The notes below the pieces were generated by a model, which saw nothing but the letters and a program-made list of their open reading frames with translations, was not told the origin of the DNA and ran no database searches. Shown one piece after another: positions 277-21,137 of a stretch of DNA of 64,000 bases; position 1 is the first letter of the stretch, and every line of letters begins with the position of its first letter. This DNA comes from Caldanaerobius polysaccharolyticus DSM 13641. Its GTDB lineage: Bacteria > Bacillota > Thermoanaerobacteria > Thermoanaerobacterales > Caldanaerobiaceae. A program made the position numbers and the translations under genes. The DNA lies in the NCBI RefSeq assembly GCF_000427425.1, contig NZ_KE386495.1, forward strand, positions 857,072 through 921,071, given 5' to 3'.

Positions 277-294
277 ATGACGGGAGGGGTAGAA

Positions 295-738: not shown

Positions 739-762
739 TTTTTTGGTGGAGGTGTATTAATA

Positions 763-1566: not shown

Positions 1567-1576
1567 GGATGAAAAA

Positions 1577-2521: not shown

Positions 2522-2525
2522 TGGA

Positions 2526-3662
2526 GTGAGGTACGAATTGGAAGTGATATCGCCGTTAAATATAGGAAACGGCACAAGGATTAAAGATTTCGAGTACTTT
2601 TTTAGGAACGGCAGGGTTGAGTATATAGATATTTACAAGCTTGTAAAGGATGTTAGTAAAAACGAAAAAAGAGCTGATTATCTCATAAATAGCTTCAATC
2701 GACAGGATTTTAGATGGAGTGAAATAAAAGAAAAGATTGGGCTTGAAAATTTGGATAAATATATTTCTGTAGTTTTAGAAGCTAACGGGATTACAGATGT
2801 AAAAGGAGAAATTATACCAGTAATTAAAAGTGCCGGGAGGCCTTATATTCCTGGATCTTCAATAAAAGGGGCGATAAGATCTTCAATTACAAGAAGTATT
2901 TGGGAAGATGCAGGTACATATTATAAAAATCAAATAGATTATACTATTAGAAAGAAAAATAATCCTAAATATAAATTAGACCCCAAAAAATTAGATGATA
3001 AAGCAGAAGAAAAGGTGTTTGGAAAACCACATAATTCACCGTTCAGATATCTAAAGATTTCTGACAGTGATATTTTGTCTAATGATAGTCTTAATATATA
3101 TGAAGTTAAAATAATGAATATATGTAATGATAGAGTTAAATGGTTTAGCCTAAATAAAAACTACGATAAAAGCGAAGAGGCACTATCGGTTTATATAGAG
3201 GCTTTTAAAAGGGGGACCAAGACATATGGCAGTTTTAATCTGGATAAAAAAATATGTGATAGTTTTATGGTAATAGAAGGTAACATTGTAAATTACCAGA
3301 TACTTAAGATGTTTAAAAAGCTGATAAGGGAGGATATAAATAGATATATAGAAGAGGAGATTGTTTTCTTTACGAAATATGGTTTAACTGAAATTGTAGA
3401 TTTTTATAAAAACATTAAGATACGAAATGATGAATTAAGAGAAAATGAGATTATGATTCAAATGGGTTTTGCTACGGGATATTTAGGCAAGACTGTCGGT
3501 AATTATCTTAATAAGAGTATAAAAGACATTGAAAAATTGAAATTGGTTATGCCACGGACTAAAGTGTATACTCCACTGTTTCCTAAGACGAGGAGAATAA
3601 TTTTCAAAAATGGGAAACCTGATTGCGTGCCAGGGTGGATTAAACTGACATTTGAAGGATGA
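2526..3662 (+). CDS. csm5: Csm5, crRNA 3'-end RAMP subunit
   Basis: 378 residues if started at GTG 2526, preferred over an upstream in-frame ATG at 2472 because GAGGGG (2512-2517) lies at proper spacing and the protein then begins RYELEVISPLNIGNG, the normal Csm5 N terminus. The Gly-rich motif GRPYIPGSSIKGAIRSSI is the RAMP signature shared with Csm3. Csm5 binds the crRNA 3' region and recruits housekeeping nucleases for trimming in characterised systems. The stop at 3660-3662 is followed directly by the site for the next gene. Confidence 0.92.
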   Translation: MRYELEVISPLNIGNGTRIKDFEYFFRNGRVEYIDIYKLVKDVSKNEKRADYLINSFNRQDFRWSEIKEKIGLENLDKYISVVLEANGITDVKGEIIPVIKSAGRPYIPGSSIKGAIRSSITRSIWEDAGTYYKNQIDYTIRKKNNPKYKLDPKKLDDKAEEKVFGKPHNSPFRYLKISDSDILSNDSLNIYEVKIMNICNDRVKWFSLNKNYDKSEEALSVYIEAFKRGTKTYGSFNLDKKICDSFMVIEGNIVNYQILKMFKKLIREDINRYIEEEIVFFTKYGLTEIVDFYKNIKIRNDELRENEIMIQMGFATGYLGKTVGNYLNKSIKDIEKLKLVMPRTKVYTPLFPKTRRIIFKNGKPDCVPGWIKLTFEG

Positions 3663-3666
3663 TAAG

Positions 3667-4365
3667 ATGAGCGTTGTCAAGTTAAGATTGGAATTTCATT
3701 TAAATGATAATTTCTTTTTCGATAGAGGATATAAGCAAATTTTATCCGACTATTATTATGAGATTATAGGAAATAGATTGTTTGTTTTTTCGGACATAAT
3801 ACCCCAAAAAAAGAAAAACTCTGATGATGGTTTTTGGGCGATAGAAAAAGCTGCATTTGATTTTTCTACGGTACCTACTGAAAAACTATTAAATGTAGCA
3901 ATGAATACCATGAAAAAACCTATACAGTTCAAATATGGTTCATTGGAGATAAAGAAGGTACGTTTTTTAAAAATAAAGCTAGAAAATAAAGCTTATACTT
4001 TGTCTCCAATTATAGTTTTTAAAAATGGTAATCCATTACTGTATGAAGAGAATCCTATATATTTCAGCGAAGTTTTAAGGGAGATTTTAATTTTCAAGTA
4101 TAAAAATTTATTTGGTGTTTATCCCCAGGATGACCGATTTGTTTTTTATTTTAAAAACAAACCTCTTAAAGAAGAAATAAATGGATTTCCAGTTTATAAA
4201 GGTTGTTTTGAAATAATTGGTTCTAAAGATCTTATTAAACTTTCATATAATACAGGGCTTGGTAATTTTAATGAACTGGGTTTCGGAATGATATCAAGTG
4301 ATTTGTATTTTTGGAAAAAATCAACTGACACAAAGTTGAAAAATAATAACGGAAATAGTAGTTGA
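3667..4365 (+). CDS. cas6: Cas6-family RAMP protein, type III-associated copy
   Basis: 232 residues from ATG 3667 (GAAGGATG just upstream; an in-frame TTG at 3652 overlaps csm5 and is less likely). The C-terminal Gly-rich loop NTGLGNFNELGFGMI is the Cas6 signature. Cas6 cuts CRISPR precursor RNA within the repeat. Oddity: the usual N-terminal His-containing segment, seen as LHDEGY in the second copy at 8812-9606, is absent, and the only His I find is His11. This copy may therefore be non-catalytic, use another residue, or act mainly in RNA binding. It is the last RAMP gene before the CARF effector and lies in the csm operon. Confidence 0.8.
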   Translation: MSVVKLRLEFHLNDNFFFDRGYKQILSDYYYEIIGNRLFVFSDIIPQKKKNSDDGFWAIEKAAFDFSTVPTEKLLNVAMNTMKKPIQFKYGSLEIKKVRFLKIKLENKAYTLSPIIVFKNGNPLLYEENPIYFSEVLREILIFKYKNLFGVYPQDDRFVFYFKNKPLKEEINGFPVYKGCFEIIGSKDLIKLSYNTGLGNFNELGFGMISSDLYFWKKSTDTKLKNNNGNSS

Positions 4366-4379
4366 GGAGGTTTTTTATT

Positions 4380-6110
4380 ATGATAAAGTTTTTTTCTTTT
4401 TTAGGAACTAACAGATATATCCCATGTAATTACTATCTGGGAGATGCTAGAGCAGAAAACGACAGTTATGTCCAACTAGCTCTGTTGAAAGTACTTCATA
4501 TTAAAGGTGTTGTGCCTTCCAAAGTGATTGTATTTACAACGAAAAAGGCCGTTGAACAAAACTGGGTACAAAATGCGTATGACAAAACCCTCCCTGGGCT
4601 TTACGAAGCGTTATGTAATCTTGATTTTATACCAGGAACAGTTAATAATTTAGTAATTCCTGAAGGTAACAATGAAAAAGAACTATGGGCGTTATTTGAT
4701 ATAATAATGGGAGAAATAGACGAAGGAGATGAAATAATATTTGATATAACTCATTCGTTTAGGTTTCTTCCTATGCTAGCTTTTATAGTTTTAAATTATG
4801 GACGAGTTGTTAAGAAAGCTCAGATTAAAGCCGTTTATTATGGAGCATTTGAAACATTGGGTTCAACCAGAGATGTTGAAATGATGCCTATAGAAAAAAG
4901 GAACGCACCGATTTTCGATTTGACCCCTTTTATAGATGTTTTTGATTGGACTTTAGGAGTAGACAGATATTTGAATACAGGTGATGTATCGATTATACAT
5001 AATTTAACTCAAGCTGGTGTAAAAGGAATAAATAGCGAAATTTCTGCTATGGATGTTAAAGATAAAAAAGTAATGTTTAGAAATGTAAGTCAATTAAAAA
5101 TACTGGCTGAAAATATGAAGAAGTTTAGTGATGTTGTATTTACGTGTAGAGGGAAAGAATTGGATAAAACAGCTTTAGAGTTAAAGAAAACTATAGATAC
5201 CGTGCTTGAAAGTGCCGTTTATACATATCTTAAACCTTTGTCTCCTGTACTAAACATGTTAAATAGTAAATTTGGCAAATTTGGAGAAAATAATTATGCT
5301 AATTTACTAAATATTTGCGAATGGTGTTTAGATAATAGAATGTATCAACAAGGTTTAACCTTATTAGAAGAAGGAATTGTAAGTTATCTTTGCAATAAAA
5401 ACGAGTTAAACCAAAATGAACAATCTCATAGAGATATTATAAGCGCATGTAGTGCGGTGCTTCACGGAAAAAAGTTAAAGCAAGAGTATGAAAAGGATAG
5501 ACATATTATAGATTCTATAATCCAGAATTCCAAGAACCATGCTTTGTTAAAATTGCTTTATTCAATTGCTTCTGTCAGAAATGATATTAATCATGCAGGG
5601 TGGAGAAATAATCCAGGGAGTCCGAGTATTTTTGAAAAACAGCTAAGAGATTTTATAGACAAGGCTCGTTCTATTCAACATGATAATAGTGAATCCGTTT
5701 GTGTTAAGCCTAGGCGTATGCTTCTTATAATTTCACATTCCATTACTCCAGAACAGGAGAAAGAAGCAAGGACACAATTAGGGATTGATGAGTTTGTGAT
5801 GCTAGAACCAAATCTTTTAGAGAGATGGTCTAATATACCGCCTGATGTTCATTTACTGTATGATCATTTGGAAGGCCTATTTAAGTGGATTGATAAAAAT
5901 GCATGTGATGGAGATTATGTTCTGGTTCAAGGCGATTACGGGGCTACGTTTATGGTCGTAGATTATTGTATGGCCAGGGGGATAAAACCTGTTTATGCTA
6001 CTACCCAGAGAAAGGTTAAAGAAGAAATATCAGGAGATAGCATTATTGCTACTAGGGAGTTTAGACATGTTATGTTCAGAGAATATAGACGACATGGTCA
6101 GTTAATTTGA
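4380..6110 (+). CDS. CARF-HEPN ribonuclease with C-terminal Csx20-like domain
   Basis: 576 residues; ATG 4380 is preceded by GAGGAGG (4364-4370), better than the in-frame TTG 4362. Three blocks are visible. (1) N-terminal CARF sensor of the Csx2/TIGR02221 type with DITHSFRF at about residue 122. (2) HEPN ribonuclease domain with the R-x4-H motif RNDINH near residue 400. (3) An extra 130-residue C-terminal domain from about residue 445, with LLIISHSITPEQ, then GDYVLVQGDYGATFMVV and IKPVYATTQRKV, which resembles the small stand-alone Csx20 family. CARF-HEPN enzymes degrade RNA when Cas10 supplies cyclic oligoadenylate, and Csx20 is among the proteins reported as ring nucleases degrading such messengers. 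Inference: one polypeptide senses, acts and may terminate the signal. It ends the csm operon and abuts array 1. Confidence 0.85.
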   Translation: MIKFFSFLGTNRYIPCNYYLGDARAENDSYVQLALLKVLHIKGVVPSKVIVFTTKKAVEQNWVQNAYDKTLPGLYEALCNLDFIPGTVNNLVIPEGNNEKELWALFDIIMGEIDEGDEIIFDITHSFRFLPMLAFIVLNYGRVVKKAQIKAVYYGAFETLGSTRDVEMMPIEKRNAPIFDLTPFIDVFDWTLGVDRYLNTGDVSIIHNLTQAGVKGINSEISAMDVKDKKVMFRNVSQLKILAENMKKFSDVVFTCRGKELDKTALELKKTIDTVLESAVYTYLKPLSPVLNMLNSKFGKFGENNYANLLNICEWCLDNRMYQQGLTLLEEGIVSYLCNKNELNQNEQSHRDIISACSAVLHGKKLKQEYEKDRHIIDSIIQNSKNHALLKLLYSIASVRNDINHAGWRNNPGSPSIFEKQLRDFIDKARSIQHDNSESVCVKPRRMLLIISHSITPEQEKEARTQLGIDEFVMLEPNLLERWSNIPPDVHLLYDHLEGLFKWIDKNACDGDYVLVQGDYGATFMVVDYCMARGIKPVYATTQRKVKEEISGDSIIATREFRHVMFREYRRHGQLI

Positions 6111-6268
6111 TTAAGGTATTTACAAAACTACGTAAATATGGTTAAATATAATTTAATGGATGTTTAGTTTGTCAACTCTCGAGCGTTTTTACATTATCTG
6201 AGGTTGACGAAAAATTTATACCATAGGAGGGTATCAAAAACCCTCATTTCATGCGTATTTTTTACTGG
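6111..6268 (+). promoter_or_regulatory. Leader of CRISPR array 1
   Basis: 158 nt AT-rich leader between the CARF-HEPN-Csx20 gene and the first repeat. It contains the block CTGAGGTTGACGA followed by TTTATACCATA, and a hairpin GAGGGT-atcaaaa-ACCCTC at 6227-6245, ending 23 nt before repeat 1. The array 2 leader has the same blocks, hairpin and 23-nt spacing. In other systems leaders carry the array promoter and the Cas1-Cas2 docking sites; here this role is inferred from position and conservation. Confidence 0.85.
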
Positions 6269-7366
6269 GTTTTAATCGGACCAGTATGGAATTGAAATTA
6301 ACAAGCGGATTCAAGTTAGAAAGGGCTGGAGGTTAGTTTTAATCGGACCAGTATGGAATTGAAATGTTTACAAGTATTTTATTAAAGTTCTACTATTAAA
6401 AAGTTTTAATCGGACCAGTATGGAATTGAAATGCGCTTGGGGGCTGATACAAAATGACAATCAATGGCAGTTTTAATCGGACCAGTATGGAATTGAAATT
6501 GTAATAGTCAGAAAATTCATACAATAAAATCCTCTTTGTTTTAATCGGACCAGTATGGAATTGAAATGACTTGCCGATGATAGAAAAGCGAGGGCAAGGG
6601 AAGTTTTAATCGGACCAGTATGGAATTGAAATGCACCCAGTACCAGTCGCCGTTTGGAGCCTGCCATGTTTTAATCGGACCAGTATGGAATTGAAATAGA
6701 ATAGCCCTTAACATCTTCAAAAAGAATTACACTCAGTTTTAATCGGACCAGTATGGAATTGAAATTCTTTTTTTGTGCACAAAAAATAGGCCCGAAGGGC
6801 CAGTTTTAATCGGACCAGTATGGAATTGAAATCTGCATGATAAGCAGTTGTGATATATACTACATACGTGCCTGGTTTTAATCGGACCAGTATGGAATTG
6901 AAATCTTGCCAGCCGCAAGCATCCCTCACGGCCAGCATATAGTTTTAATCGGACCAGTATGGAATTGAAATTTAATTATGATGTTTATTATATCATCATA
7001 TCCTGCTGTTTTAATCGGACCAGTATGGAATTGAAATATGAGAAGCAAAGCATGACCCTCTTTACCAAAAATAGTTTTAATCGGACCAGTATGGAATTGA
7101 AATGGGAAGACGTATGCTTCGCCCACCCCGGCCACCTCTGTTTTAATCGGACCAGTATGGAATTGAAATGAAGTAGCATACAACTCATTCAACCTCTGGA
7201 ATGCAGTTTTAATCGGACCAGTATGGAATTGAAATGCGATTTCCCCTGCTAAAAGAAGCTTTTTAACCAAGTTTTAATCGGACCAATATGGAATTGAAAT
7301 AAGCTTTCACCCAATCCCACGTTGTTGACGGTGAAGGTTTCAATCGGACCATTGCGGAATTGAAAG
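6269..7366 (+). CRISPR. CRISPR array 1: 17 repeats of 30 nt, 16 spacers
   Basis: Repeats start at 6269, 6336, 6403, 6470, 6538, 6603, 6668, 6736, 6803, 6875, 6942, 7008, 7074, 7140, 7206, 7271 and 7337. The consensus begins GTTTTAATCGGACCAGTA and ends TGGAATTGAAAT. Spacers are 35-38 nt except one of 42 nt (6833-6874). The repeat 3' end ATTGAAAT matches the usual 5' crRNA tag, so transcription is on the plus strand away from the leader. Repeat 16 has one change (CCAATA). Repeat 17 (7337-7366) is GTTTC...CCATTG...GAAAG, i.e. it resembles the array 2 repeat. Short minus-strand reading frames with repeated FQFHTGPIKT across this stretch are artefacts of the array. Spacers here look more GC-rich than those of array 2. 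Confidence 0.99.
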
Positions 7367-7532: not shown

Positions 7533-8762
7533 ATGAAAAATATATTAATCTCTTTAATTGGGCGTGGGAGAAAACCAGATGGAGGTAAAGGATATATAAA
7601 AACGAGGTATAGTTTTGATAATGGTGAATATATAAGCGATGAAACGGCTTTTTTTGGTTCAGCATTGTATAGATACTTAGTAGGTAGAGGTTATGATATT
7701 GATAAGTGGATTATATTTGGTACTAATACTTCAACCTGGTCTGAAATTATTGAAGCAGTAAATAGCGTTCAACATGAAAGATTAGAAGAGATGTATTATA
7801 AAGTCTTAGATGAAGAAGAAAATGGGATAACTGATAAAACATTGAAGCAGTGGGAATGCAATATAAGCAATTTTATAAATGTAAATCTCGTCGCGGTTGA
7901 TCCTTTAGATTATAAGGCCTATATCAACGTGTTGTTAAATATTATAACTGCTGGAGATGAATATAAAATCTTTTTTGACATGACTCACGCTTTCAGACAT
8001 ATGTCTACTGTTTTATCTTTTTCATTGATGTATTTAAAATACCTTCGAGATATTAAAAATATTGAAGTATACTATGGAGCTTTGGATATGGCAAAAGATG
8101 CTGTTAAACCCGTTTTAAAAATTGACTTCATAAATGAACTGTTCTCATTATCTACTTCTTTTGATCTGTATAAAAACTCCGGGTACTTTCCTGAAATATT
8201 AAAAGATCTTGGAATTTCAAACAGGGAAAATACATATTTCAAACTGGAACTAAATAGAAATCCAAGAAATGAGTTAAGAGAAATAGTAAAAGAATTGGAG
8301 AAAATAGTGGGAAGCGATAACTACAAAACAGAAACCGCACTATGCATTAAAAATCAACTGAGCAGATTATATGAGTTAAAGTATTTAGATGAAAGAATGG
8401 TAGAGAGGGCGAAATTTTTCTTTGACAAAAAGCAGTATTTAAAAGCACTGGTGTTGCTTTATGAGGCCATAATCATACTGGCGGGAAGGGCATATCAGAT
8501 CCCAGATAAGCAAAATTACGAGAAAAGAGAAGAGAGCAGAAGAAGGATAAAAGAAGAAATAAAAGGTATTAGAGATAGAAAATTCATAAAAAGAGAGAGG
8601 ATGGGAGAGGTTTTTAATCTTTTAGAATATACGAGAAATGCAGCGGTACATGGCTCTGATCCGCAGGGTATTCAGGAATATTTAGAGCAGCGTTCGTATT
8701 TTGAAAGTTTGTTTAATGAAGCGCTGGACATTTATCACGAAATAAGCAACAGTCTTAGTTAA
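7533..8762 (+). CDS. CARF-HEPN ribonuclease (Csx1/Csx2 family), no extra domain
   Basis: 409 residues; ATG 7533 with GGAGG 7521-7525. The N-terminal CARF domain carries DMTHAFRH at about residue 149, the counterpart of DITHSF in the 4380-6110 protein. The C-terminal HEPN domain has R-x4-H as RNAAVH (Arg368-His373). Proteins of this kind are RNases switched on by cyclic oligoadenylate from Cas10. Unlike the first effector, it ends soon after HEPN and has no Csx20-like tail. It sits between array 1 and the type I-B genes, separated from the csm operon by the array, and is probably transcribed with the second cas6 (49-nt gap). Confidence 0.87.
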   Translation: MKNILISLIGRGRKPDGGKGYIKTRYSFDNGEYISDETAFFGSALYRYLVGRGYDIDKWIIFGTNTSTWSEIIEAVNSVQHERLEEMYYKVLDEEENGITDKTLKQWECNISNFINVNLVAVDPLDYKAYINVLLNIITAGDEYKIFFDMTHAFRHMSTVLSFSLMYLKYLRDIKNIEVYYGALDMAKDAVKPVLKIDFINELFSLSTSFDLYKNSGYFPEILKDLGISNRENTYFKLELNRNPRNELREIVKELEKIVGSDNYKTETALCIKNQLSRLYELKYLDERMVERAKFFFDKKQYLKALVLLYEAIIILAGRAYQIPDKQNYEKREESRRRIKEEIKGIRDRKFIKRERMGEVFNLLEYTRNAAVHGSDPQGIQEYLEQRSYFESLFNEALDIYHEISNSLS

Positions 8763-8811: not shown

Positions 8812-9606
8812 ATGCGCGTAAAGATATGTTTTAGACCGGAAAAAGAAGTGGAGATTATTGATATTAATTATAACTATTATATAACATCAATGATATACAA
8901 TTTATTGTCAAAGTCAAATAAGGAGTTTACAGATAAATTGCATGATGAAGGCTATAGATTGGGCTCCAGGCACTTTAAGTTGTTTACTTTTTCTCAGCTC
9001 AAAGTAAAGAAATACATCGTAGAGGAATCGAAAATTAAAATCATGGATGATGCTTTGCTATACATAGGATCTCCTAGGCTTGATTTTTTATATTATTTGT
9101 CTGATACCCTTCTTAAGGCAGAGAGAATTAAAATTGGCAGTGGCTTTTTTATTGTTGATCATGTGGACCTACTGAGAAATGTGAGATTTTCAAGAGAGGA
9201 GAGATTTTACTGCCTTTCTCCAATAACGACTTCAACAATGGAAGTTATAGGCAATGTGAAAAAGGAGAGAAATGTAGATATAAGGGACAGCAAATTTATT
9301 GACAATTTAAAGAACAACCTTATAAGAAAATATTATCTGTTGTACGATCGGCTCCCTGAAGATATGAACATAGACATACATTTTGACGAAGAGTATTTGA
9401 GCAACATAAGAGGAAAGCTGATATGGTTTAAAAACGTGGCGGTAAAGGGCTATTCTGCACCTTTTACTATAAAGGCTGATCCTGAGATCATAAAAGTGGC
9501 TTATGAATGTGGCCTGGGAGATAAAAATAGCGCTGGTTTCGGCATGATTGAAATAGACAGAAAAAATAGAGTGGGATTGGATAATGTATGTGATAGCGGT
9601 GTATGA
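8812..9606 (+). CDS. cas6: Cas6, CRISPR repeat endoribonuclease (type I-B copy)
   Basis: 264 residues; ATG 8812 with GCGGAGG. This is a full-length Cas6: N-terminal LHDEGYRLGSRHFKLF places His44 at the position expected of the catalytic His, and the C-terminal Gly-rich loop is CGLGDKNSAGFGMIE. It cuts precursor RNA in the repeat to leave the 8-nt ATTGAAAT-type tag. Because the two arrays' repeats differ at only three bases, this enzyme could plausibly process both. The 3' end overlaps the cas2 start by 23 nt in another frame, so the two are translationally coupled. Confidence 0.93.
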   Translation: MRVKICFRPEKEVEIIDINYNYYITSMIYNLLSKSNKEFTDKLHDEGYRLGSRHFKLFTFSQLKVKKYIVEESKIKIMDDALLYIGSPRLDFLYYLSDTLLKAERIKIGSGFFIVDHVDLLRNVRFSREERFYCLSPITTSTMEVIGNVKKERNVDIRDSKFIDNLKNNLIRKYYLLYDRLPEDMNIDIHFDEEYLSNIRGKLIWFKNVAVKGYSAPFTIKADPEIIKVAYECGLGDKNSAGFGMIEIDRKNRVGLDNVCDSGV

Positions 9607-9847
9607 CGTAGAGGAAAAAAGGGTTGCAAAGATGTTAAAACTTTTCAGACAGTATCTAAACTGGATTCAAAACTCAGTTTTTGAGGGAGAGTTGACAGAA
9701 GCACAGCTTCTGAAATTAGAGAATTCTATAAAGAAGATAATAGATTCCGAAACTGACTCGGTGATAATATTTAAATTCAGGGATCAAAAATGGGCTGACA
9801 AAAAAATTATAGGCAAAGAAAAAAATTCTACGTCAAATTTTCTATAG
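9584..9847 (+). CDS. cas2: Cas2, structural subunit of the spacer integrase
   Basis: 87 residues starting MYVIAVYDVEEKRVAKMLKL, the standard Cas2 ferredoxin-fold opening with the conserved Asp8 after the first strand. Cas2 dimers bridge Cas1 dimers in spacer integration. It overlaps the end of cas6. Position is unusual: in most type I-B loci cas2 follows cas1, while here it lies between cas6 and cas8, about 6.2 kb upstream of cas1. No second cas2 is visible, so this copy probably partners the Cas1 at 16053-17039 for both arrays. Confidence 0.93.
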   Translation: MYVIAVYDVEEKRVAKMLKLFRQYLNWIQNSVFEGELTEAQLLKLENSIKKIIDSETDSVIIFKFRDQKWADKKIIGKEKNSTSNFL

Positions 9848-9921
9848 TGACATAATATGGCCATCCTGTATGTTATTATTAAAATATAGCGAAAAATCAA
9901 AGTCAACAGGAGGTGATGGGC

Positions 9922-11487
9922 GTGTTAATTACTATTAATAACAGAGACGATGTTTGGCTTAACAACGGTCTTACCAATCTGTGCCGAATGCTTAAAGAGA
10001 TAGAGGATCCCAGGATTTTTGAATGTAGCGTGTTTCCTGATAGGGTGGAAGTGAATATAAAAAATGATGAAGATTTTATAAGAATTCTGGGACGAAAGAT
10101 TGTTGCTGATAGCGATACGTACATTTTCGTCAGAAAGCAAAATGATGATGGCAGCATTAATTGGACGAGAAAGGATTATGTATGTATTCAGTATGGTAGC
10201 AAAGTTAATGGCAGAAATGTTTTAAAGGAGAAAGCGTATACAACAGAAGGTATCCAAGAGCTATTAAAAGCTGTGTTGGTTCAATATGGTGCTCTATCGG
10301 GTAAAAAGCTCAAAAAAGATGTGTGTATTTTGTGCGGACAGGAATATTTTTACGAGAAGCGATGGGATAAATTGAAACAGGCTGTATATCCTTTTATTAC
10401 CCGTAACAAATCTATGTCAGGGGTACGCAGCAACATTGAAGCGGAAAAAGCTCCTAAGACAAGGCCGGAATATTATGACAATGTATGTCCTACATGCTAC
10501 TTGATAGGCGTTCTGGAATGGTGTGATCCTGCACATATTTTCCTCTATAAAGGCGACCGGTCGTTTTTATTTATACCTGAATTATCAAGGCTTGATAACA
10601 TGTTTGATTTTAAAGAAAAATATAGATATAGCCTTGACCCTGATAGGTTTGTATCTAGTGTTAGGGTAATAATTAAGACCGGCGAGGAGGAAAAAGAAGG
10701 TTATACGCAAGGCGGTAGCAGTTTGATGCTGGCTTTTCTTGAAAAGGCTTTATCACAGGAGTTTAAGACAGAGAGGATAACCAGGTTTAAGACTCGCGTG
10801 GAATACTTTAGAAACTGGCTTATGCTGCAGATACCGTCAGGAAATATGAGGGATATAAAGCCCAGGGAAATTGGCATCGACCAGGAGGTTATAGATGTCA
10901 TCGCGGAGTGCGTTGAAAAGGACATAAAGATTTACACTTCTTTTATAAACAATTTATCTATTGTAGAATCTGGAAGCCAGGCACCAAAATACGATATGGC
11001 TGAAGACTTAAAAGAGAGATGTTCGGAGGCTTTTCTCGGCAATGATTATGATGCCTTTGCAAAGGCATTGGCGCCTAGAGGCAAGTACATGGTGCGCTTT
11101 TACAGGGATGCATATGACAATTTGAAAGACTTTGTATATATCTGGAGGTGGGAGAAGATGAGGTTAAGCGAAGATGATTTGAAGGTGGTACAGCAGGTGG
11201 CAAGGATAATAGCAAGAGTTGCTGAGGACCATTCAAATCTGCTGTTTAAGTTGGATAAGGTTCGAAACCTTACAGATCTTTTGGATCTCTTAAGAGAAGT
11301 GGGCAGGAGGTATACATTCCTTGAGGACAGAGAATATTTGAGTGCTGCTTCTCTGGCGAAGATTGCGGAACTGCTGGTGAGCAGGGATTGGTCGGTTCAG
11401 GAATTTAACGATTTTAAGAATACCCTGGCCGTATTCAGTTACGCTTATACTGGACAGAATCAATATTTTGCGAAAGCAAATAAATAG
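9922..11487 (+). CDS. cas8b: Cas8 large subunit, type I-B (Cst1-like, zinc-finger type)
   Basis: 521 residues from GTG 9922, chosen because AGGAGG (9908-9913) is 8 nt upstream; in-frame GTG 9913 and ATG 9916 overlap that site. Two CxxC pairs, CILCGQEYF at roughly residue 132 and CPTCYLIG near residue 190, form the likely zinc finger seen in CXXC-CXXC Cas8 proteins of the Tneap-type I-B systems. Cas8 recognises the protospacer-adjacent motif and recruits Cas3 in Cascade. Sequence conservation in Cas8 is weak; the call leans on the zinc motif and on its place before cas7-cas5-cas3. Confidence 0.82.
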   Translation: MLITINNRDDVWLNNGLTNLCRMLKEIEDPRIFECSVFPDRVEVNIKNDEDFIRILGRKIVADSDTYIFVRKQNDDGSINWTRKDYVCIQYGSKVNGRNVLKEKAYTTEGIQELLKAVLVQYGALSGKKLKKDVCILCGQEYFYEKRWDKLKQAVYPFITRNKSMSGVRSNIEAEKAPKTRPEYYDNVCPTCYLIGVLEWCDPAHIFLYKGDRSFLFIPELSRLDNMFDFKEKYRYSLDPDRFVSSVRVIIKTGEEEKEGYTQGGSSLMLAFLEKALSQEFKTERITRFKTRVEYFRNWLMLQIPSGNMRDIKPREIGIDQEVIDVIAECVEKDIKIYTSFINNLSIVESGSQAPKYDMAEDLKERCSEAFLGNDYDAFAKALAPRGKYMVRFYRDAYDNLKDFVYIWRWEKMRLSEDDLKVVQQVARIIARVAEDHSNLLFKLDKVRNLTDLLDLLREVGRRYTFLEDREYLSAASLAKIAELLVSRDWSVQEFNDFKNTLAVFSYAYTGQNQYFAKANK

Positions 11488-11501
11488 GGGAGGATTTAAA
11501 T

Positions 11502-12437
11502 ATGGATATGAAATGCATTGAAATGACATGGTTAAGTAAGACATCGCTTACAAATCTTAACTCAGGAGAAGGAGAAAGCAATCTCATTGATGTGAAGAAG
11601 TACAGGTGGAAGGGCGAGGAGTACCCTTATGTCAGCGGGCAGGCCATGAGGTTTTACATGAAGGAAGCTATAAGGCGCCTTACGGATTTCAACAGTTCGT
11701 GTATACCCAATGATAAAGGAGAAAGCTGCGGCGATGTGAGTTCATGCGAACTGTGTGACCTTTTTGGATACATGAGTACCATTGAGAAAAAAGAGTCTAA
11801 AAAGGGCGGCGCAAAGATCAGGGTATCGCCGGTGAAAGTGGCTCCTGCTATGGGGTTGCTTCCTTTTGATGAGAACAGCACTATTGACTTTCTGACAAGG
11901 AAGAAGAGATCTTCTACAGATAGCGGCGATCTCAAAGGAGATATAGTCAATGTGGAGATGGGACTAAACATATATAGGAGTGGTATATCCATAGATGTTT
12001 ATAAGATAGGGAGAGAAGAGGTAATAAATGAGGATAATGGCCGCAGGACAATAGAGTTAAAAGACTTGGTACCCGCTGATGAAAGGTTAAAGCGAATTAT
12101 ACATGTATTGGATGCGGTGAAAAATATGAGTGACTATTCTAAACAAGCTCGACTATTGACGGATTTCACTCCGGACTTCATAGTATGTTCCCTTCAGCCC
12201 AACTATAATCACAGACTTCAGAAGGCGATCGAGATAGATGAAGGGCAAAATTTAAATACAGATAGGCTAAAAGAGATATTGATTCAGTTAAAAGAGGATG
12301 GATCTTATATAGTCGCTGGAGCCATATCGGGTATTGTGAATAATTTAGATGAGGTAAAAGAGGTATTAAGTGAGCTGGGTATTGAGTTGAAATTACCAGG
12401 TGAGGCAATAAATGCATTAAAAGAAAAGATAAGGTGA
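11502..12437 (+). CDS. cas7: Cas7, Cascade backbone (Cst2/DevR family)
   Basis: 311 residues with GGGGAGG just upstream of ATG 11502. The N terminus MTWLSKTSLTNLNSGEGESN and the motif YPYVSGQAMRFYMKEA match the Cas7/Cst2/DevR family; a Cys-rich insertion CGDVSSCELCDLFGY follows, as in many members. Cas7 polymerises along the crRNA guide. It lies 14 nt after cas8 and 4 nt before cas5. Confidence 0.92.
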   Translation: MDMKCIEMTWLSKTSLTNLNSGEGESNLIDVKKYRWKGEEYPYVSGQAMRFYMKEAIRRLTDFNSSCIPNDKGESCGDVSSCELCDLFGYMSTIEKKESKKGGAKIRVSPVKVAPAMGLLPFDENSTIDFLTRKKRSSTDSGDLKGDIVNVEMGLNIYRSGISIDVYKIGREEVINEDNGRRTIELKDLVPADERLKRIIHVLDAVKNMSDYSKQARLLTDFTPDFIVCSLQPNYNHRLQKAIEIDEGQNLNTDRLKEILIQLKEDGSYIVAGAISGIVNNLDEVKEVLSELGIELKLPGEAINALKEKIR

Positions 12438-12441
12438 TAGC

Positions 12442-13092
12442 ATGAATGGCCTGATGTTTAAAATGTCAGCTCCTTATTTTGCGGCGTTCAGAAAGCCTAC
12501 CTCCAATAGCTCTTTGAGCACGTTTCCTGTACCGCCGTTTACTACTATAAGGGGCATGATATCCAATGCGATGGGTTTGAGAAGGGATGATTTTACTTTG
12601 CAAGATATTATGGAGATAGGCGTCGCACCTGTTTATATAGAAAGGCCTGTAAAGGAAAAAGCGCTTATGTTGAAAACGGTTAATAACCCCAAAGATAACA
12701 TAAAAGCTTTCTGGACTTCGCCGTTCTGGAGAGATTTCATGGTCATGCCTGAATACAAAATATACATAAAAGCAGAGGACGCTTTAATAGATGAAATATA
12801 TGAAGCACTTATAAACCCTGCAAGGCCGCTTTATATAGGCCAATCGGACGATATGGTCGTGATTGAAGATCTAGAAAAAACCGATGTAGTCAAAGGCCAA
12901 TCTGACACTGTAAATTCCATTATAGAGGGCCTTTGTGATGGCTGTGAACTGGTAAAGTTGCTCTATAAATTTCGGGATAAAGATACGTTGATTTACACGC
13001 CTACAATATCTGTGCCTTATGAATTACCGTATAAGCTAAATAAAGTTATAGAGGGTTATTACTTTAAAAATGATTTTGTTCAGCTGTTTTGA
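12442..13092 (+). CDS. cas5: Cas5, crRNA 5'-handle cap of Cascade
   Basis: 216-residue Cas5t-type RAMP protein. The N-terminal signature FKMSAPYFAAFRKPTSN followed by STFPVPPFTTIRGMISNAMG is characteristic of Cas5, with the PPxTTIxGmi block. It binds the 5' handle of crRNA and joins Cas8. ATG 12442 follows cas7 by 4 nt. The stop at 13090-13092 lies just upstream of the cas3 start. Confidence 0.92.
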   Translation: MNGLMFKMSAPYFAAFRKPTSNSSLSTFPVPPFTTIRGMISNAMGLRRDDFTLQDIMEIGVAPVYIERPVKEKALMLKTVNNPKDNIKAFWTSPFWRDFMVMPEYKIYIKAEDALIDEIYEALINPARPLYIGQSDDMVVIEDLEKTDVVKGQSDTVNSIIEGLCDGCELVKLLYKFRDKDTLIYTPTISVPYELPYKLNKVIEGYYFKNDFVQLF

Positions 13093-13102
13093 GGTGAAGG
13101 GT

Positions 13103-15550
13103 ATGGATATAGCCAAAAGGCATGAATATAATGATAAGGTGTTTTTCCAGACGCTAAAAGGCCACACAGTAGATGGACTGGTGATATTAAAGAGATATTT
13201 TGATTCCAACGAAATGACAGTACGGGAATTTTGCCGAAAGTGGGATGTGGACTATAATAGATTTGTCCAGAATACCTTTGAAATAGTGTTGTTTCACGAT
13301 ACGGGTAAATTGATAAAAGAGTTTCAGGAGAATATAAGGATGGGGAAATCGTCAAAAGATTATCCCCATCCCCTTATATCCGTGTATATAGTTATGATGT
13401 TACAGGAAGCTGGAATGGATATACTTAGGCCTCTTGACGACAAGTATTGTCCTTTTCCAGACGAAGAGTTTATGGCATTGTGCCAGATTTTATCTCATCA
13501 TACCCAGCTTTACCAGGGAATTTACGAAAATGTCTCTAATGTACCCCATCTCCTTTATGACGAAATAAACAGGTTTTTAGATGATATTCCTGAAATTATT
13601 AGATTGAGTGGATTTAAAGGAATAACCATAAAACCGGTTCATGTAAAGAATGAACCTATTCCAAAAGATTTTATAGATGAATTTCGGCACATAAAGAACC
13701 AGTGGGTTGATTTTTGCAGGAATATGAAAGCTAAGGATAAAGTAAGATTAAAAGCCGTATATAGCTACATGTATTCGCTCTTGCAGCTATGCGATGATTA
13801 CTCCAGCGCCTATTTCTCAGAGTATGTTGAGGAACATAATCTTGATTGGGATATAACTGGTCCCATATTAAGCTATGATGCTGCCGGTAAGTATGTCATT
13901 CCATATCCGGAAATCGATAAAAACGCTATAACTGGTGGACGAGATCCAAGGGATTTTCAGAAACGGTTGGGTGATGTTGGTCCTTATGTGATGCTGCTGG
14001 CGCCATGTGGAAGGGGAAAGACTGAAGGGGCATTATATTGGGCTGAAAACATGAGAAAACATCGGTTTATCAATAGGCTTATTTTTGCCATGCCTACCCA
14101 GATAACCAGCAACGCCATGGCGGATAGGTTAAAGATGATTTACGGCGAGGAAAACGTAGGGGTATATCATGGTAAGAGCCTTTTGTATTACCAGGAACAA
14201 TTAAAAGGAATAATTGATGAAGACGATCTAAAGCTTATAGAGCTGGCTGAAGAACAGAATTTTATGTCAAAAGTTTTTTTAAAGCCTATCATGGTTACCA
14301 CTATTGATCATTTAGTTTTTTCCTTTATACATGGTTTCAGTCAGGCTGATTTTACTCTGGGTAATATACAAACGGCGTGTATAGTATTTGATGAAGTTCA
14401 TTATTATGAGAAGGATACATTGAGGCATCTTGTCAGTTTGTTTTCGCTGTTACGGGAGATGAAGATACCCCATCTACTTATGAGCGGTACCTTTCCTGAG
14501 TTTCTCAAAAAAAATTTGGAAGAGAGTGCTGCGTTAGAAGGAAAAAGCTATGAGACCGTAATAGATGAGGAGGGGCTCAAATATCAGCCTTTTATTGTGA
14601 AAAAACACGGCGACTGTATAGTAAATAAAATAGAAAATGACTTTGCCGTAAATGACGATGTGATAGAAGAGATCAGGAGCAATTACCATAAAGGTATAAG
14701 GCAGTACATAATCTTAAATACGGTGAGAAAGGCTCAGGAGGTATATAAAAGGTTAAAGGGGGTAATAGAGCCATCTGACAATTTAGTATTATACCATTCG
14801 CGATTTACCGGCCATGATAGATCAAAAAAAGATAAATCCTTATTGCGGGACAGGGATAAGAGGCCGTATATCCTTGTAAGCACCCAGGCTATCGAAATAA
14901 GCCTTGATATATCTTGCGACGTTATGTTCACCGAACTGGCACCTGCTGATGCTATAGGCCAGAGGGGTGGCAGGTTGAACAGGGGTGCAAAGCATTACTT
15001 AAAAGATAATTTGGAGTGTGTTTTACATCTATACAATACTGATACGATGAGACCTTATGTAAATTCAAAAAAAGATGAAGATGTGAAGGCGGTATTAGAG
15101 AGGACGTACGCTGGTTTTACAGATAAACCGTATACTTATGGAGATATTAAGGCCATATGTGATATAGCTTATAGAGATTTTAGGCTGGATTATACAGATT
15201 TTCTGGCATTCTTTTACGCTGGCACTTTGTTCGGTTATAGTTATAAAGAGATTACCCGGGAAGGGGCAGGAGAGGAAGGAAATGTATTTAAGCTTCGAAG
15301 CGATGATTATATAATGATCGATGCATATCCATTAGATGTAGTAGGAGATAACGTGGAAAATTGCAGAGATTATGAAAACATTGTTAAAGTACCGTACTGG
15401 TGGTACGTGTCAGCGAAAGAGAATTTGTTCAAAAATTTAGAGGATAAATACCACAAGTACCTGGTATGCAAATTGCCATATTCATTTGAAATAGGGTTTG
15501 ATGAGTCCAAGCTAAAGGAAGTGATGCCTGATTATGGGGCTTTTCTCTAG
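13103..15550 (+). CDS. cas3: Cas3, HD nuclease-helicase of type I interference
   Basis: 815 residues from ATG 13103 (GAGGTGAAGG upstream; an in-frame ATG at 13070 overlaps cas5). The N-terminal HD nuclease has KGHTVDGL, LFHDTGK (His64-Asp65) and LSHHTQ. The SF2 helicase follows: Walker A APCGRGKTEG near residue 302, DEVH near 430, SGTFP, VSTQAIEISLDIS and QRGGRLNRG. All key motifs appear intact, so this should be an active single-polypeptide Cas3 that unwinds and degrades DNA marked by Cascade. The last 17 nt overlap cas4. Confidence 0.96.
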   Translation: MDIAKRHEYNDKVFFQTLKGHTVDGLVILKRYFDSNEMTVREFCRKWDVDYNRFVQNTFEIVLFHDTGKLIKEFQENIRMGKSSKDYPHPLISVYIVMMLQEAGMDILRPLDDKYCPFPDEEFMALCQILSHHTQLYQGIYENVSNVPHLLYDEINRFLDDIPEIIRLSGFKGITIKPVHVKNEPIPKDFIDEFRHIKNQWVDFCRNMKAKDKVRLKAVYSYMYSLLQLCDDYSSAYFSEYVEEHNLDWDITGPILSYDAAGKYVIPYPEIDKNAITGGRDPRDFQKRLGDVGPYVMLLAPCGRGKTEGALYWAENMRKHRFINRLIFAMPTQITSNAMADRLKMIYGEENVGVYHGKSLLYYQEQLKGIIDEDDLKLIELAEEQNFMSKVFLKPIMVTTIDHLVFSFIHGFSQADFTLGNIQTACIVFDEVHYYEKDTLRHLVSLFSLLREMKIPHLLMSGTFPEFLKKNLEESAALEGKSYETVIDEEGLKYQPFIVKKHGDCIVNKIENDFAVNDDVIEEIRSNYHKGIRQYIILNTVRKAQEVYKRLKGVIEPSDNLVLYHSRFTGHDRSKKDKSLLRDRDKRPYILVSTQAIEISLDISCDVMFTELAPADAIGQRGGRLNRGAKHYLKDNLECVLHLYNTDTMRPYVNSKKDEDVKAVLERTYAGFTDKPYTYGDIKAICDIAYRDFRLDYTDFLAFFYAGTLFGYSYKEITREGAGEEGNVFKLRSDDYIMIDAYPLDVVGDNVENCRDYENIVKVPYWWYVSAKENLFKNLEDKYHKYLVCKLPYSFEIGFDESKLKEVMPDYGAFL

Positions 15551-16043
15551 TGAGGTAAAAATTACCGGTGTAGAGGTAAACTATTATTTTTACTGCAAAA
15601 GGCAGTTGTGGTTTTATACCCATGGACTGGATATGGAGCAGAATTCTGTGGATGTGGAAATCGGCAGAGAAATTCACGATGAAAGCTTCGAAAGAGAGCA
15701 CAAAGAGGTTTTGATAGATGATACTATAAAGCTAGATTTTGTAGGTAAAAGTGCAGAAATTCATGAAGTCAAAAAAGGAAAGAGATTGGATAAAGGCGAT
15801 AGGTATCAGATACTATTTTATATCTATTACCTTGAGAAAAAGGGTATAGAAAATGTGCGGGCCGTGGTTCACTTTCCTCTGTATAAGATGAAAGAGGAAT
15901 TATATTTGACCGATGAAGATAGGAAGGTATTAGAGGAGGCTCTTGCGGAAATAAAAAAGATAAGGCAAGCCAATAAGCCAGATCCTCCTTTGAACAAGTC
16001 TGCCTGCAAAAAGTGTAGTTATTATGAACTTTGCCTGAGTTGA
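15534..16043 (+). CDS. cas4: Cas4, Fe-S RecB-like nuclease of spacer adaptation
   Basis: 169 residues. Cas4 signatures: N-terminal YYFYCKRQLWFY with the first cluster Cys, the RecB nuclease strand EIHEVKKGKRL, DRYQILFYIYYL (QxxxY motif), and the C-terminal cluster CKKCSYYELC, giving four Cys for the iron-sulfur centre. Cas4 trims prespacers and selects those with the correct adjacent motif. ATG 15534 overlaps the cas3 3' end; cas1 follows within 10 nt. Confidence 0.93.
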   Translation: MGLFSSEVKITGVEVNYYFYCKRQLWFYTHGLDMEQNSVDVEIGREIHDESFEREHKEVLIDDTIKLDFVGKSAEIHEVKKGKRLDKGDRYQILFYIYYLEKKGIENVRAVVHFPLYKMKEELYLTDEDRKVLEEALAEIKKIRQANKPDPPLNKSACKKCSYYELCLS

Positions 16044-16052
16044 GGTGTGCAT

Positions 16053-17039
16053 ATGAAAAGGAATTATTATATAATGAGTAACGGTCGTATATCACGAAAA
16101 GATAATACTATATACTTTGAGGGAAGCGAAGGCAAAAAAGCCATACCTATAAACGATGTGGAGTCCATTTATATTTTCGGCGAGGTGGATTTTAATAACA
16201 GGGCTGTAAACTTTCTGGCACAGAATAACGTGACAGTTCATCTTTTCAATTATTATGGCTTTTATACCGGCAGCTTTTATCCGAGAGAGTATTTGCTTTC
16301 GGGCTTTTTAGTGGTTAAACAGGTAGAGAAATATCTCAATAATTTCACACGGCTTCAAATAGCCAGAGAATTTATAGATGCAGCCAGCTACAATATACTT
16401 AAAAATCTTAAATATTATAATCGCAAAATAGATCTAGAGGATTATATAGAGAGAATAGAGGTAGAAAGAGAAAATATATCTAAGGCAAATAGCATAAGCG
16501 AATTAATGGGAACTGAAGGCAGGATAAGGGATATATACTATGAAACATTTAATTTAATCACTACTGGTAGATTTGAATTTGATAAAAGGGTTAAACAACC
16601 ACCTGATAACGCTATGAATGCATTGATATCTTTCGGCAATTCCCTTATGTATACAACGGTTTTAAGTGAAATTTACAATACGCAGTTAAATCCAACTGTA
16701 AGTTATCTCCACGAACCAGGCGAGAGGAGATTTTCTTTGAGTTTAGATATAAGTGAAGTTTTTAAGCCGATAATAGTGGATAGGGTTATATTTAAGTTAA
16801 TAAATGAAGGCATGATAAGAGAGGAACACTTTGATAAAGATCTGAATATGTGCTATTTAAGCGATAAAGGTAGAGCCGTTTTTTTAAAAGAATATGATGA
16901 AAAATTAAATACTATAATCCACCATAAAGACTTAGATAGAAACGTTAGCTATAGAAGATTGATAAGGCTGGAATGTTATAAATTGATAAAGCATATTACA
17001 GACGTAAAGAAATATGAAGGGCTAAAAATTTGGTGGTAA
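16053..17039 (+). CDS. cas1: Cas1, CRISPR spacer integrase
   Basis: 328 residues from ATG 16053 (TGAGGTG 6-12 nt upstream; in-frame GTG 16047 overlaps that site). Catalytic metal-binding residues appear intact: Glu155 in MGTEGR, His220 in YLHEPGE and Asp232 in SLSLDISEV. It integrates spacers at the leader-repeat junction with Cas2. It is the last gene before the array 2 leader, and it is the only cas1 seen for the two arrays. No reverse-transcriptase fusion is present. Confidence 0.96.
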   Translation: MKRNYYIMSNGRISRKDNTIYFEGSEGKKAIPINDVESIYIFGEVDFNNRAVNFLAQNNVTVHLFNYYGFYTGSFYPREYLLSGFLVVKQVEKYLNNFTRLQIAREFIDAASYNILKNLKYYNRKIDLEDYIERIEVERENISKANSISELMGTEGRIRDIYYETFNLITTGRFEFDKRVKQPPDNAMNALISFGNSLMYTTVLSEIYNTQLNPTVSYLHEPGERRFSLSLDISEVFKPIIVDRVIFKLINEGMIREEHFDKDLNMCYLSDKGRAVFLKEYDEKLNTIIHHKDLDRNVSYRRLIRLECYKLIKHITDVKKYEGLKIWW

Positions 17040-17194
17040 AATATTGACACAAATATCTTATTTATGATAAACTGAAAAGTAATGGTCGTTAAAGATGTCA
17101 ACGTCCAAGCTTTTTTACATCACCTGAGGTTGACGATAATTTTATACCATATGAGGGTATCAAAAACCCTCATATATAAACATTTTTTGCTGGG
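17040..17194 (+). promoter_or_regulatory. Leader of CRISPR array 2
   Basis: 155 nt between cas1 and repeat 1. It shares TTTTTACATCACCTGAGGT, then TGACGATAATTTTATACCAT, with the array 1 leader, and the hairpin GAGGGT-atcaaaa-ACCCTC at 17153-17171, again exactly 23 nt before the first repeat. The conserved hairpin and spacing suggest a common signal for integration or transcription. Confidence 0.87.
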
Positions 17195-20100
17195 GTTTCA
17201 ATCGGACCATTGTGGAATTGAAATATATTTCCACCAGTTCCGCCTCCAAAGTTGCCTGTATGTTTCAATCGGACCATTGTGGAATTGAAATAAAAACGGT
17301 TCTACAATTTTTTCTTTTATGCTTTCGTTTCAATCGGACCATTGTGGAATTGAAATATGAAATTATGCGTACCCACCTAGAAGGTATAATAAAAGTTTCA
17401 ATCGGACCATTGTGGAATTGAAATGTAGAAAGTCTTAAAGATAAAATTGTAGAACCATTCTGTTTCAATCGGACCATTGTGGAATTGAAATTAGACAAAC
17501 CTCCAATTTATTAATATTAATGATATTGTTTCAATCGGACCATTGTGGAATTGAAATACGATTTGCTTACATTTTTTACATTTCAGGTAGACACGTTTCA
17601 ATCGGACCATTGTGGAATTGAAATTACAAAATATCAATGCTTGTCTGATCTCTTTGCTCCAAGTTTCAATCGGACCATTGTGGAATTGAAATAGAAAAAG
17701 TAGCTGCAACAATTGTCAATGCGATTTGGTTTCAATCGGACCATTGTGGAATTGAAATAAAATTTTTACACGGTTTGTTGCGTTATTGTCGTTTGTTTCA
17801 ATCGGACCATTGTGGAATTGAAATTGAGCAACTAAATACATATGCTTGTTTGATATATCAAGTTTCAATCGGACCATTGTGGAATTGAAATTGGAAATCC
17901 TGTTCTTTAATTTCCTCGTTTGATCTAAGTTTCAATCGGACCATTGTGGAATTGAAATGAGTAATCTGTTTGCCTTCCAATTGGGACTTTGTAGTTTCAA
18001 TCGGACCATTGTGGAATTGAAATAGTGAAAACAGCCACAACAACAGTAGCAAGTACACTTGTTTCAATCGGACCATTGTGGAATTGAAATGTAGTGATAA
18101 AACTTACATATGGTAATACATCTTTTAGTTTCAATCGGACCATTGTGGAATTGAAATGGAGTATAAGAAACAGGGATATGGTGTGATAAAAGTAGTTTCA
18201 ATCGGACCATTGTGGAATTGAAATTTTAAGTCGTACCACATCTTTTCATATCTCATCTTCGTTTCAATCGGACCATTGTGGAATTGAAATCTGATAGACT
18301 ACGAAAACGGAAGAACGATACCGAGTTTCAATCGGACCATTGTGGAATTGAAATCCTTGTAAATTATTACAAGATACCTATCTAACCCAAGTTTCAATCG
18401 GACCATTGTGGAATTGAAATTTTAATAAATGTTTAATAAATATTTTTAATGCATCAGTTTCAATCGGACCATTGTGGAATTGAAATCAATTTCTTCTATG
18501 TCAACATCATCATTCAACATATGTTTCAATCGGACCATTGTGGAATTGAAATAACATAGGAACAGAAACGTTCCTGTGTGTTGAAACGGGTTTCAATCGG
18601 ACCATTGTGGAATTGAAATGAATATTTAAGATGAGATAAAAAATCTTGTTGACAGGTTTCAATCGGACCATTGTGGAATTGAAATACTACCTTCTTCCTT
18701 GCTCTCTCCAGTATCCATGGAGTTTCAATCGGACCATTGTGGAATTGAAATTGGTCAACTATATTGTGCCATCTGTTTTTCTCATGCGTTTCAATCGGAC
18801 CATTGTGGAATTGAAATACAGGTTTTTGTATATTGTTAATTCATATACAGCTGGTTTCAATCGGACCATTGTGGAATTGAAATGGATTAAGTTGGGATAT
18901 ATAAGTACCTAATATACTAGTTTCAATCGGACCATTGTGGAATTGAAATAGTAGATGTGGAATTTGATATTAGGGATGATGCGACTAGTTTCAATCGGAC
19001 CATTGTGGAATTGAAATTGTTATAGCTAATAGAGTTGGATATTTAGATACTACTGTTTCAATCGGACCATTGTGGAATTGAAATGAAACAAGACTTTCAT
19101 CCATACGATAATACAAGCAAGTTTCAATCGGACCATTGTGGAATTGAAATCAATAATAATCACCATCTATTTCAACAACATTATCTGTTTCAATCGGACC
19201 ATTGTGGAATTGAAATAAAGCTGATACAACGGCGACTGCGTATTTCCAGCATGTTTCAATCGGACCATTGTGGAATTGAAATATATCCCTCCATTTTTAT
19301 TAGTATATCAATATTTCGTTTCAATCGGACCATTGTGGAATTGAAATGTTGCGTAGAAACTTATATCCGTTACATCGTAATCGTGTTTCAATCGGACCAT
19401 TGTGGAATTGAAATAGTTGTTGTATTTCCTTATTTAATTCTTCTTCATATGTTTCAATCGGACCATTGTGGAATTGAAATTTATGAAAATTAATATATAA
19501 ATTCCCGTCTTCTAAATAGTTTCAATCGGACCATTGTGGAATTGAAATGCAACGCAATCGAAAAAGCAGGTGCTTGCTGTGGCGTTTCAATCGGACCATT
19601 GTGGAATTGAAATAAATTATCCACAAAACTTACTAGAGTACCAGGATTCGTTTCAATCGGACCATTGTGGAATTGAAATAATTTAAGAAGGCAAAAATAA
19701 AAAGCTAAAGAATTTTTGTTTCAATCGGACCATTGTGGAATTGAAATGAGCTGTAGGTAAAACATGCAATCTCAATCTAATATCGTTTCAATCGGACCAT
19801 TGTGGAATTGAAATTACAATAAATTTATTTTTTGATAATGATAAAGCGGGGTTTCAATCGGACCATTGTGGAATTGAAATACGTTACACGTGGAATGTGC
19901 ATTTGAGCGATGACCCGTTTCAATCGGACCATTGTGGAATTGAAATATATTAGAATTATTTAATAAATATCCTTTAGACTGGTTTCAATCGGACCATTGT
20001 GGAATTGAAATGATCGGCTACTTTTTCTCTTTCGACATACAAAATGCGTTTCAATCGGACCATTGTGGAATTGAAATAAAAAACAAATTAAGGAAATACA

Positions 20101-21137
20101 AGAGAGATTGAATAGGTTTCAATCGGACCATTGTGGAATTGAAATGAGTGATCGACGCTTACAGATGGAATACATTGTAAAGTTTCAATCGGACCATTGT
20201 GGAATTGAAATGCTGTTGTCAGAGGCCCTTCTTTTGCTGGAGAATGTGGGTTTCAATCGGACCATTGTGGAATTGAAATAGTGAAAACAGCCACAACAAC
20301 AGTAGCAAGTACACTTGTTTCAATCGGACCATTGTGGAATTGAAATGTAGTGATAAAACTTACATATGGTAATACATCTTTTAGTTTCAATCGGACCATT
20401 GTGGAATTGAAATGAATATTTAAGATGAGATAAAAAATCTTGTTGACAGGTTTCAATCGGACCATTGTGGAATTGAAATACTACCTTCTTCCTTGCTCTC
20501 TCCAGTATCCATGGAGTTTCAATCGGACCATTGTGGAATTGAAATATGAAAAAAGGTTATATCAGAACTGCTTCAAAGGATGGGTTTCAATCGGACCATT
20601 GTGGAATTGAAATACATAATCTAATACTCTATAAAGTAATTCCATTCATGTTTCAATCGGACCATTGTGGAATTGAAATCTACAGTACGTTAATAAAAAT
20701 CATGCGAGAGCAGGGAGCAAGTTTCAATCGGACCATTGTGGAATTGAAATAGAGCAGAAAATAAAGTTTATAATTGGTTAAAAGAAAGTTTCAATCGGAC
20801 CATTGTGGAATTGAAATATTATGACAAGACAATGACCCTCTTTGCCAAAAATACCGTTTCAATCGGACCATTGTGGAATTGAAATGTTTTTCCCTAAAGA
20901 TGCTTCACCTATCGATTTGAGTGTTTCAATCGGACCATTGTGGAATTGAAATATGCAAGGTGCAGGATACAGAAGGACTTCATCTATGTTTCAATCGGAC
21001 CATTGTGGAATTGAAAGAAACTATAACAGCCAAATTACCATAAGTTTACAAATGTTTCAATCGGACCATTGTGGAATTGAAATAGTATAAAAGGTAGAGG
21101 GATTCATAAAGGTTTAAAAAGTTTCAATCGGACCATT
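17195..21137 (+). CRISPR. CRISPR array 2: 59 full repeats plus a truncated 60th
   Basis: 30-nt repeats start at 17195, 17262, 17327, 17395, 17462, 17528 and so on every 64-71 nt to 21054. The consensus starts GTTTCAATCGGACCATTG and ends TGGAATTGAAAT. Repeat 58 (20988-21017) ends GAAAG; a final 17-nt repeat fragment is at 21121-21137. Spacers are mostly 34-38 nt and AT-rich; one is 41 nt (20680-20720). Four spacers occur twice exactly. The outer arms TTTCAAT/ATTGAAA are complementary and CCA-TTG-TGG forms a small central hairpin. Plus-strand orientation follows from the leader and the ATTGAAAT tag. It should serve the adjacent I-B genes and possibly the type III complex too. Reading frames with repeated FQSDHCGIEI or RTIVELK inside it are artefacts. 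Confidence 0.99.
20250..20515 (+). repeat. Duplicated spacer block within array 2
   Basis: Four successive spacers at 20280-20316, 20347-20383, 20414-20449 and 20480-20515 are identical to those at 18024-18060, 18091-18127, 18620-18655 and 18686-18721. In the leader-proximal copy, seven further spacers lie between the second and third. The simplest explanation is a segmental duplication with loss of the seven intervening units in one copy through repeat recombination. Confidence 0.95.

Follow-up and report, generated by a model that had tools for sequence, protein, structure and literature searches.

Two young spacers of one CRISPR array in the window (the whole stretch of 64,000 nucleotides that was analysed) match each other over nearly their full length on opposite strands, and this pair, A2 and A4, is a real, recurring feature of ordinary CRISPR memory. 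As the more probable of the explanations weighed below, we propose that the type I-B machinery took up A2 and A4 recently and separately, from two related elements carrying a diverged gene, with a PAM at each end of the site and one acquisition per strand.

Results

The spacer pair and its locus

Spacer A2 (17292-17326, plus strand, 35 nt) holds ESIKEKIVEPF in its reverse complement, and spacer A4 (17425-17461, plus strand, 37 nt) holds V-ESLKDKIVEPF. The reverse complement of A2 aligns with A4 without gaps at 28 of 34 identical bases, the 14-mer AAAATTGTAGAACC is common to both, and the edges of the two are offset by 3 and 1 bases. An inverted-repeat search returned the spacers as an inverted repeat of 32 nt with 84% complementarity. 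Their local alignment score is 44, and the maximum was 36 in 400 Markov sets of 70 spacers and 34 in an earlier, smaller null of 40 Markov sets. Because the score beats those of all random sets, the likeness is not mere chance similarity of AT-rich sequences. A second null made of window fragments was discarded as invalid, since the fragments overlapped each other by chance. In 150,360 comparisons between our own spacers and those of relatives, one reached at least 44, and it was a truly shared spacer.

Both spacers belong to CRISPR array A (17195-21083, plus strand), which has 59 repeats and 58 spacers, 54 of them distinct. The repeats comprise 58 exact copies of GTTTCAATCGGACCATTGTGGAATTGAAAT and one variant at 20988-21017. 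The array A leader (17040-17194, plus strand, 155 nt) aligns with positions 6111-6268 upstream of CRISPR array B (6269-7366, plus strand, 17 repeats and 16 spacers), which marks A2 and A4 as lying in the most recent part of array A; the degenerate repeats lie at the end far from the leader. The preliminary description had called both spacers new and had reported a near-full-length alignment with an exact shared stretch, and these statements hold, down to the coordinates.

The arrays are embedded in one block of type III-A and type I-B genes, with array B between the two systems and array A after I-B. The type III-A locus (4-6110, plus strand) contains the end of cas10/csm1, csm2-csm5, a cas6 and a CARF-HEPN-Csx20 protein. 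The full cas10/csm1 gene begins upstream, outside the window; its product of 780 aa reaches 675 bits against a Csm1 model, so that the Csm core (cas10/csm1 and csm2-csm5) is complete. A CARF-HEPN (Csx1-like) protein is encoded at 7533-8762 on the plus strand. The type I-B locus (8812-17039, plus strand) carries cas6, cas2 (9584-9847), cas8b, cas7, cas5, cas3, cas4 and cas1; the effector and processing genes (cas8b, cas7, cas5, cas3, cas6) were all found, and the adaptation set (cas1, cas2, cas4) is complete. A second cas2 gene lies far from the window (L033 10012-10275), and no repeat array was detected in the surrounding 19,901 bases. On the plasmid pMU3262, a cas6-like gene adjoins an AAA ATPase gene (L212 34160-34888; annotation).

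Coding frame and strand

Read in one frame, A2 and A4 give ESIKEKIVEPF and ESLKDKIVEPF, identical at 9 of 11 residues, and five of their six mismatches fall at codon position 3. The frame is the one given in the preliminary description, which rightly called the differences mostly synonymous or conservative. The probability of this phasing, for any phase, is 0.053, and the coding signal is thus only suggestive. The opposite strand is open in both spacers as well, reading NGSTIFSFML and NGSTILSLRL, and there, too, these bases occupy third positions, with five of six mismatches falling on them. Were this the coding strand, spacer 4 and not spacer 2 would be antisense. We give that arrangement little credence: only 7 of its 10 residues agree (the changes are F/L, F/L and M/R), whereas ES[IL]K[ED]KIVEPF keeps 9 of 11 and changes conservatively at the rest, and the viral matches to NGSTI[FL]S[FL] are unconvincing, with 34 found in viral contigs and no likeness beyond the motif in the 26 inspected. 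The strand of ES[IL]K[ED]KIVEPF, the better of the two open frames, is probably the coding strand.

Opposite-strand pairs in relatives

Twenty related genomes had a repeat match, and a survey covered parts of the arrays of 15 of them. These 15 genomes yielded 1,074 distinct spacers. Of the 48,307 pairs formed within genomes, seven score at least 34; three of the seven are opposite-strand. Judged from these arrays, opposite-strand pairing looks recurrent and not unique to this genome.

The closest twin of A2/A4 is formed by spacers 38 and 56 of one relative, G028, which lie on opposite strands with edge offsets of 1 and 1 and are identical at 32 of 36 bases. All four mismatches are at third codon positions of MNDGEKVKIARA, a peptide that lies within a tail-sheath protein (phrog_1480, E 7e-135) in 17 IMG/VR contigs, one of which has a 36/37 protospacer. 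The flanks of this protospacer in L236 are CTG and TTT, both short of full YYA, the PAM in 18 of 25 protospacers of the relatives (counted manually without our own spacers and the G028 pair, and after exclusion of matches below 78% identity, at most 8 bases from the end of a locus or with a repeat before them). By manual count, YTN stands at both PAM positions of the sheath gene in all 17 contigs, its third base falling on the wobble position of a codon, and full YYA is seen in one of the 17 at each end. With YTN at both ends, a conserved protein stretch can therefore supply each strand with a near-PAM, the two lying one spacer length from each other.

Elsewhere in the relatives, adjacent spacers 12 and 13 of the G031 array (L225) share an identical overlap of 21 bases and lie on the same strand.

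Other spacers of arrays A and B

Spacer A55 (20818-20855, plus strand) comes from the same site and strand as spacer B12 (7038-7073), with 27 of 36 bases identical and the same left edge. Their motif IFGKEGH has nine viral matches in unrelated contexts, and in 37 class genomes it was found in our own arrays only. The A16 target adjoins a RecT-like gene of a G031 prophage, and A14 targets a metallo-beta-lactamase-fold (ComEC-like) gene that sits close to prophage genes of the same genome (L106 16165-17679), with similar genes matching in several relatives. A6 and A19 have targets in other relatives. Since these spacers have related targets, array A records elements of this clade. The flanking triplets of our own spacers, from these four diverged matches only, are CTT for A6 and A16, TCT for A19 and AGT for A14.

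Spacer A15 (18158-18194) first appeared as a target match and is a shared spacer instead. It corresponds at 36 of 36 aligned bases to a spacer in a G017 array with a different repeat (L168 5276-5311), reflecting either transfer or independent uptake of one site with almost identical edges; its motif gave 0 matches. Array A also contains duplicates, with A13-A14 and A22-A23 recurring exactly as A47-A48 and A49-A50 (18024-18127, 18620-18721, 20280-20515), as if a block had been copied and then shortened.

Search for the source of A2 and A4

The preliminary description had pointed to phage and prophage proteins containing ES-x-K-x-KIVEPF as the place to locate both protospacers. Searches of IMG/VR, GTDB species genomes, phages, plasmids and 37 relatives from the same class found no protospacer for A2 or A4, whose source may never have been sequenced. 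With as many as 3 mismatches allowed in the 37 class genomes, and up to 1 in 398 phylum genomes, the spacers matched array A only. A strict degenerate pattern at the protein level had 0 matches in viral contigs and 0 in genome contigs, and six-frame scans of the relatives' stretches (13, later those and 5 more) returned no homologue.

Looser searches gave candidates that were set aside. KxKIVEPF has 16 matches in viral contigs, 15 of them in one protein family reading RLTKEKIVEPF; the core DNA has 50, the best at no more than 25 of 33 bases; and a loose pattern has 22 in genome contigs, none with ES upstream. At 2 mismatches, KxKIVEPF matched in 37 of 37 genomes, which is noise because the reversed control matched as often or more in most of them. 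A concatenated query against plasmids returned 72 records, with Lactiplantibacillus and Calothrix only and E 0.2 in the best 25, and a phage search returned three Bacillus phage matches at E 0.9; both were taken as chance. A cross-match of G5 with A4 (score 28) was within noise.

Two weak leads emerged. For A2, a repeat linker reading KEKIVEKPVE in TSAC_RS14135 of the Thermoanaerobacterium plasmid pMU3262 matches over 26 nt at 92% (E 0.08); by its Pfam matches, TSAC_RS14135 is a ParA/MinD-type ATPase gene, and a G028 spacer matches it at 35 of 35 bases. A looser pattern found EWFKDKILDPF in the tape-measure protein of one viral contig.

The preliminary description had also derived the two spacers from homologous genes of related mobile elements sampled on opposite strands. 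Their similarity, the best frame and the G028 twin speak for that origin, against which stands the empty search for protospacers; the case for homologous mobile-element genes thus rests on the codon pattern and on analogy, from which we regard this origin as likely.

Discussion

How the pair may have arisen

In this account we infer homologous-gene sources, the coding strand, the double PAM and any help from priming. The type I-B Cas1-Cas2-Cas4 machinery would have taken up A2 and A4 separately and recently, from two related mobile elements with diverged versions of one gene. At both ends of the site a PAM would be available, with one spacer length between the two, so that each strand could give one acquisition, and priming by the older spacer 4 may have helped the uptake of spacer 2.

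The strongest competitor, which we find quite possible if not favoured, is chance overlap with no special site: many spacers taken from one related phage group must sometimes overlap on opposite strands. In a simulation that drew all 70 distinct own spacers from one homologous group, 0.43-0.45 coextensive opposite pairs are expected for 20 kb, 0.20-0.25 for 40 kb and 0.02-0.08 for 160 kb, so that one such pair is not alarming in itself, and the relatives have three opposite-strand pairs among 1,074 spacers. However, this account presumes a single group as the source of all spacers. It also predicts partial overlaps at least as often as full ones, whereas here two near-full overlaps (A2/A4 and A55/B12) and no significant partial overlap were found, small as these numbers are.

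Somewhat unlikely as the whole explanation is primed acquisition, in which crRNA 4 met a mismatched related element and so prompted the acquisition of spacer 2 at the same place on the other strand. Spacer 4 is the older of the two, about six mismatches would be expected in the other element, and new spacers in type I acquisition gather near the targeted site, from both strands, in the experiments treated in parts of PMC7521656 and PMC4117759. Yet priming would offer many nearby places, and the exact A2/A4 site is one of them.

An improbable route is flipped integration, where prespacers of one kind, cut at a single PAM, enter the array once in each orientation. Flipping one fragment predicts near-coincident edges, as seen in the offsets of A2/A4 and of the G028 pair, but Cas4 is regarded as fixing spacer orientation and cas4 is present in the I-B locus; moreover, no flip is needed at the G028 site because PAM-like YTN stands at both of its ends. 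Equally doubtful is an origin of A2 and A4 from separate units within a single repetitive coding region, for which the best plasmid lead, TSAC_RS14135, with its repeat linker and its perfect match to a G028 spacer, would be the model, but it matches A2 at 26/35 and A4 at 24/37, unrelated spacers of the relatives reach 27/38 in the same low-complexity stretch, and the shared V-E-P-F end is missing from the linker. Two separate I-B acquisitions from related elements thus stay our preferred origin.

Predicted hairpin and use by the two systems

As a predicted side effect of the pair, the pre-crRNA would form a hairpin. The stretch repeat-A2-repeat-A3-repeat-A4-repeat (17262-17491, plus strand) is predicted to fold into a single long RNA hairpin in which A2 pairs with A4. 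Its predicted energy is -68.3 kcal/mol, and the mean of all 56 such array A stretches, itself included, is -48.4 (sd 5.7). Among 100 controls in which spacers 2 and 4 were shuffled, the best is -54.7. The z value of the real stretch is -5.9. The repeat starts with GTTTCAAT and ends with ATTGAAAT, and these ends are near-palindromic, so that each crRNA handle can also pair beside the opposite spacer. In the opposite orientation, the triplet at the PAM position is AAC, resembling the self triplet AAT. By the anti-tag rule, the opposite spacer in the array should read as self, a question that matters here since the precursor of each crRNA of the pair also contains its nearly complete complement.

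Type I-B interference is independent of transcription, so type I-B could use both crRNAs, and crRNAs 2 and 4 would both direct Cascade-Cas3 to DNA. Should the best frame prove correct, crRNA 2 alone would run antisense to the transcript, and the Csm complex could use it too. The last 8 nt of the repeat, the crRNA handle, are ATTGAAAT in arrays A and B alike, which makes crRNA sharing with type III, and hence type III use of array A crRNAs, plausible on sequence grounds. The preliminary description had assigned spacer 2 alone to type III RNA targeting and spacer 4 to DNA targeting. The former stands under the better frame and hangs on the coding strand and on crRNA sharing; the latter is correct as to DNA and incomplete, as both spacers suit DNA and spacer 2 probably RNA too.

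Comparison with known systems

Should such pairs exceed the number that random placement can give, they would point to two-PAM sites or errors of uptake orientation, readable from arrays alone; otherwise A2/A4 shows only that hosts repeatedly sample conserved phage sites. It would go well beyond this, and we think it rather improbable, that coextensive opposite-strand pairs are a distinct recurring class, made by conserved-codon double PAMs or flips and yielding complementary crRNAs, near anti-tags and self-reading by type III. A literature search for overlapping opposite-strand protospacers, complementary spacers or one protospacer taken from both strands found nothing on coextensive within-array pairs among the papers listed, which is no proof of absence.

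The G028 tail-sheath pair is the nearest parallel, being opposite-strand like A2/A4, with nearly the same edges and third-position differences. Its target gene is identified as a phage tail sheath, whereas none was found for A2/A4. Primed or target-induced acquisition in types I-F and I-B, as covered in parts of PMC4117759 and PMC7521656, likewise gives spacers from both strands near a targeted site. Those experiments concern one molecule, whereas the diverged spacers A2 and A4 point to two related elements.

For targeting, the counterpart is Marinomonas mediterranea, where, according to sections of PMC5576922, type I and type III systems share one cell, a type III complex uses type I crRNAs, and only spacers antisense to the transcript are useful to type III. 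That case is experimental and combines I-F with III-B; here I-B is combined with III-A, and the handles alone suggest sharing. Compared with other loci in which type I-B stands beside type III-A, the present one has all core genes of both and a common 8-nt crRNA handle. Its cas2 lies upstream of cas8b and does not adjoin cas1, and it is otherwise a usual locus of this kind.
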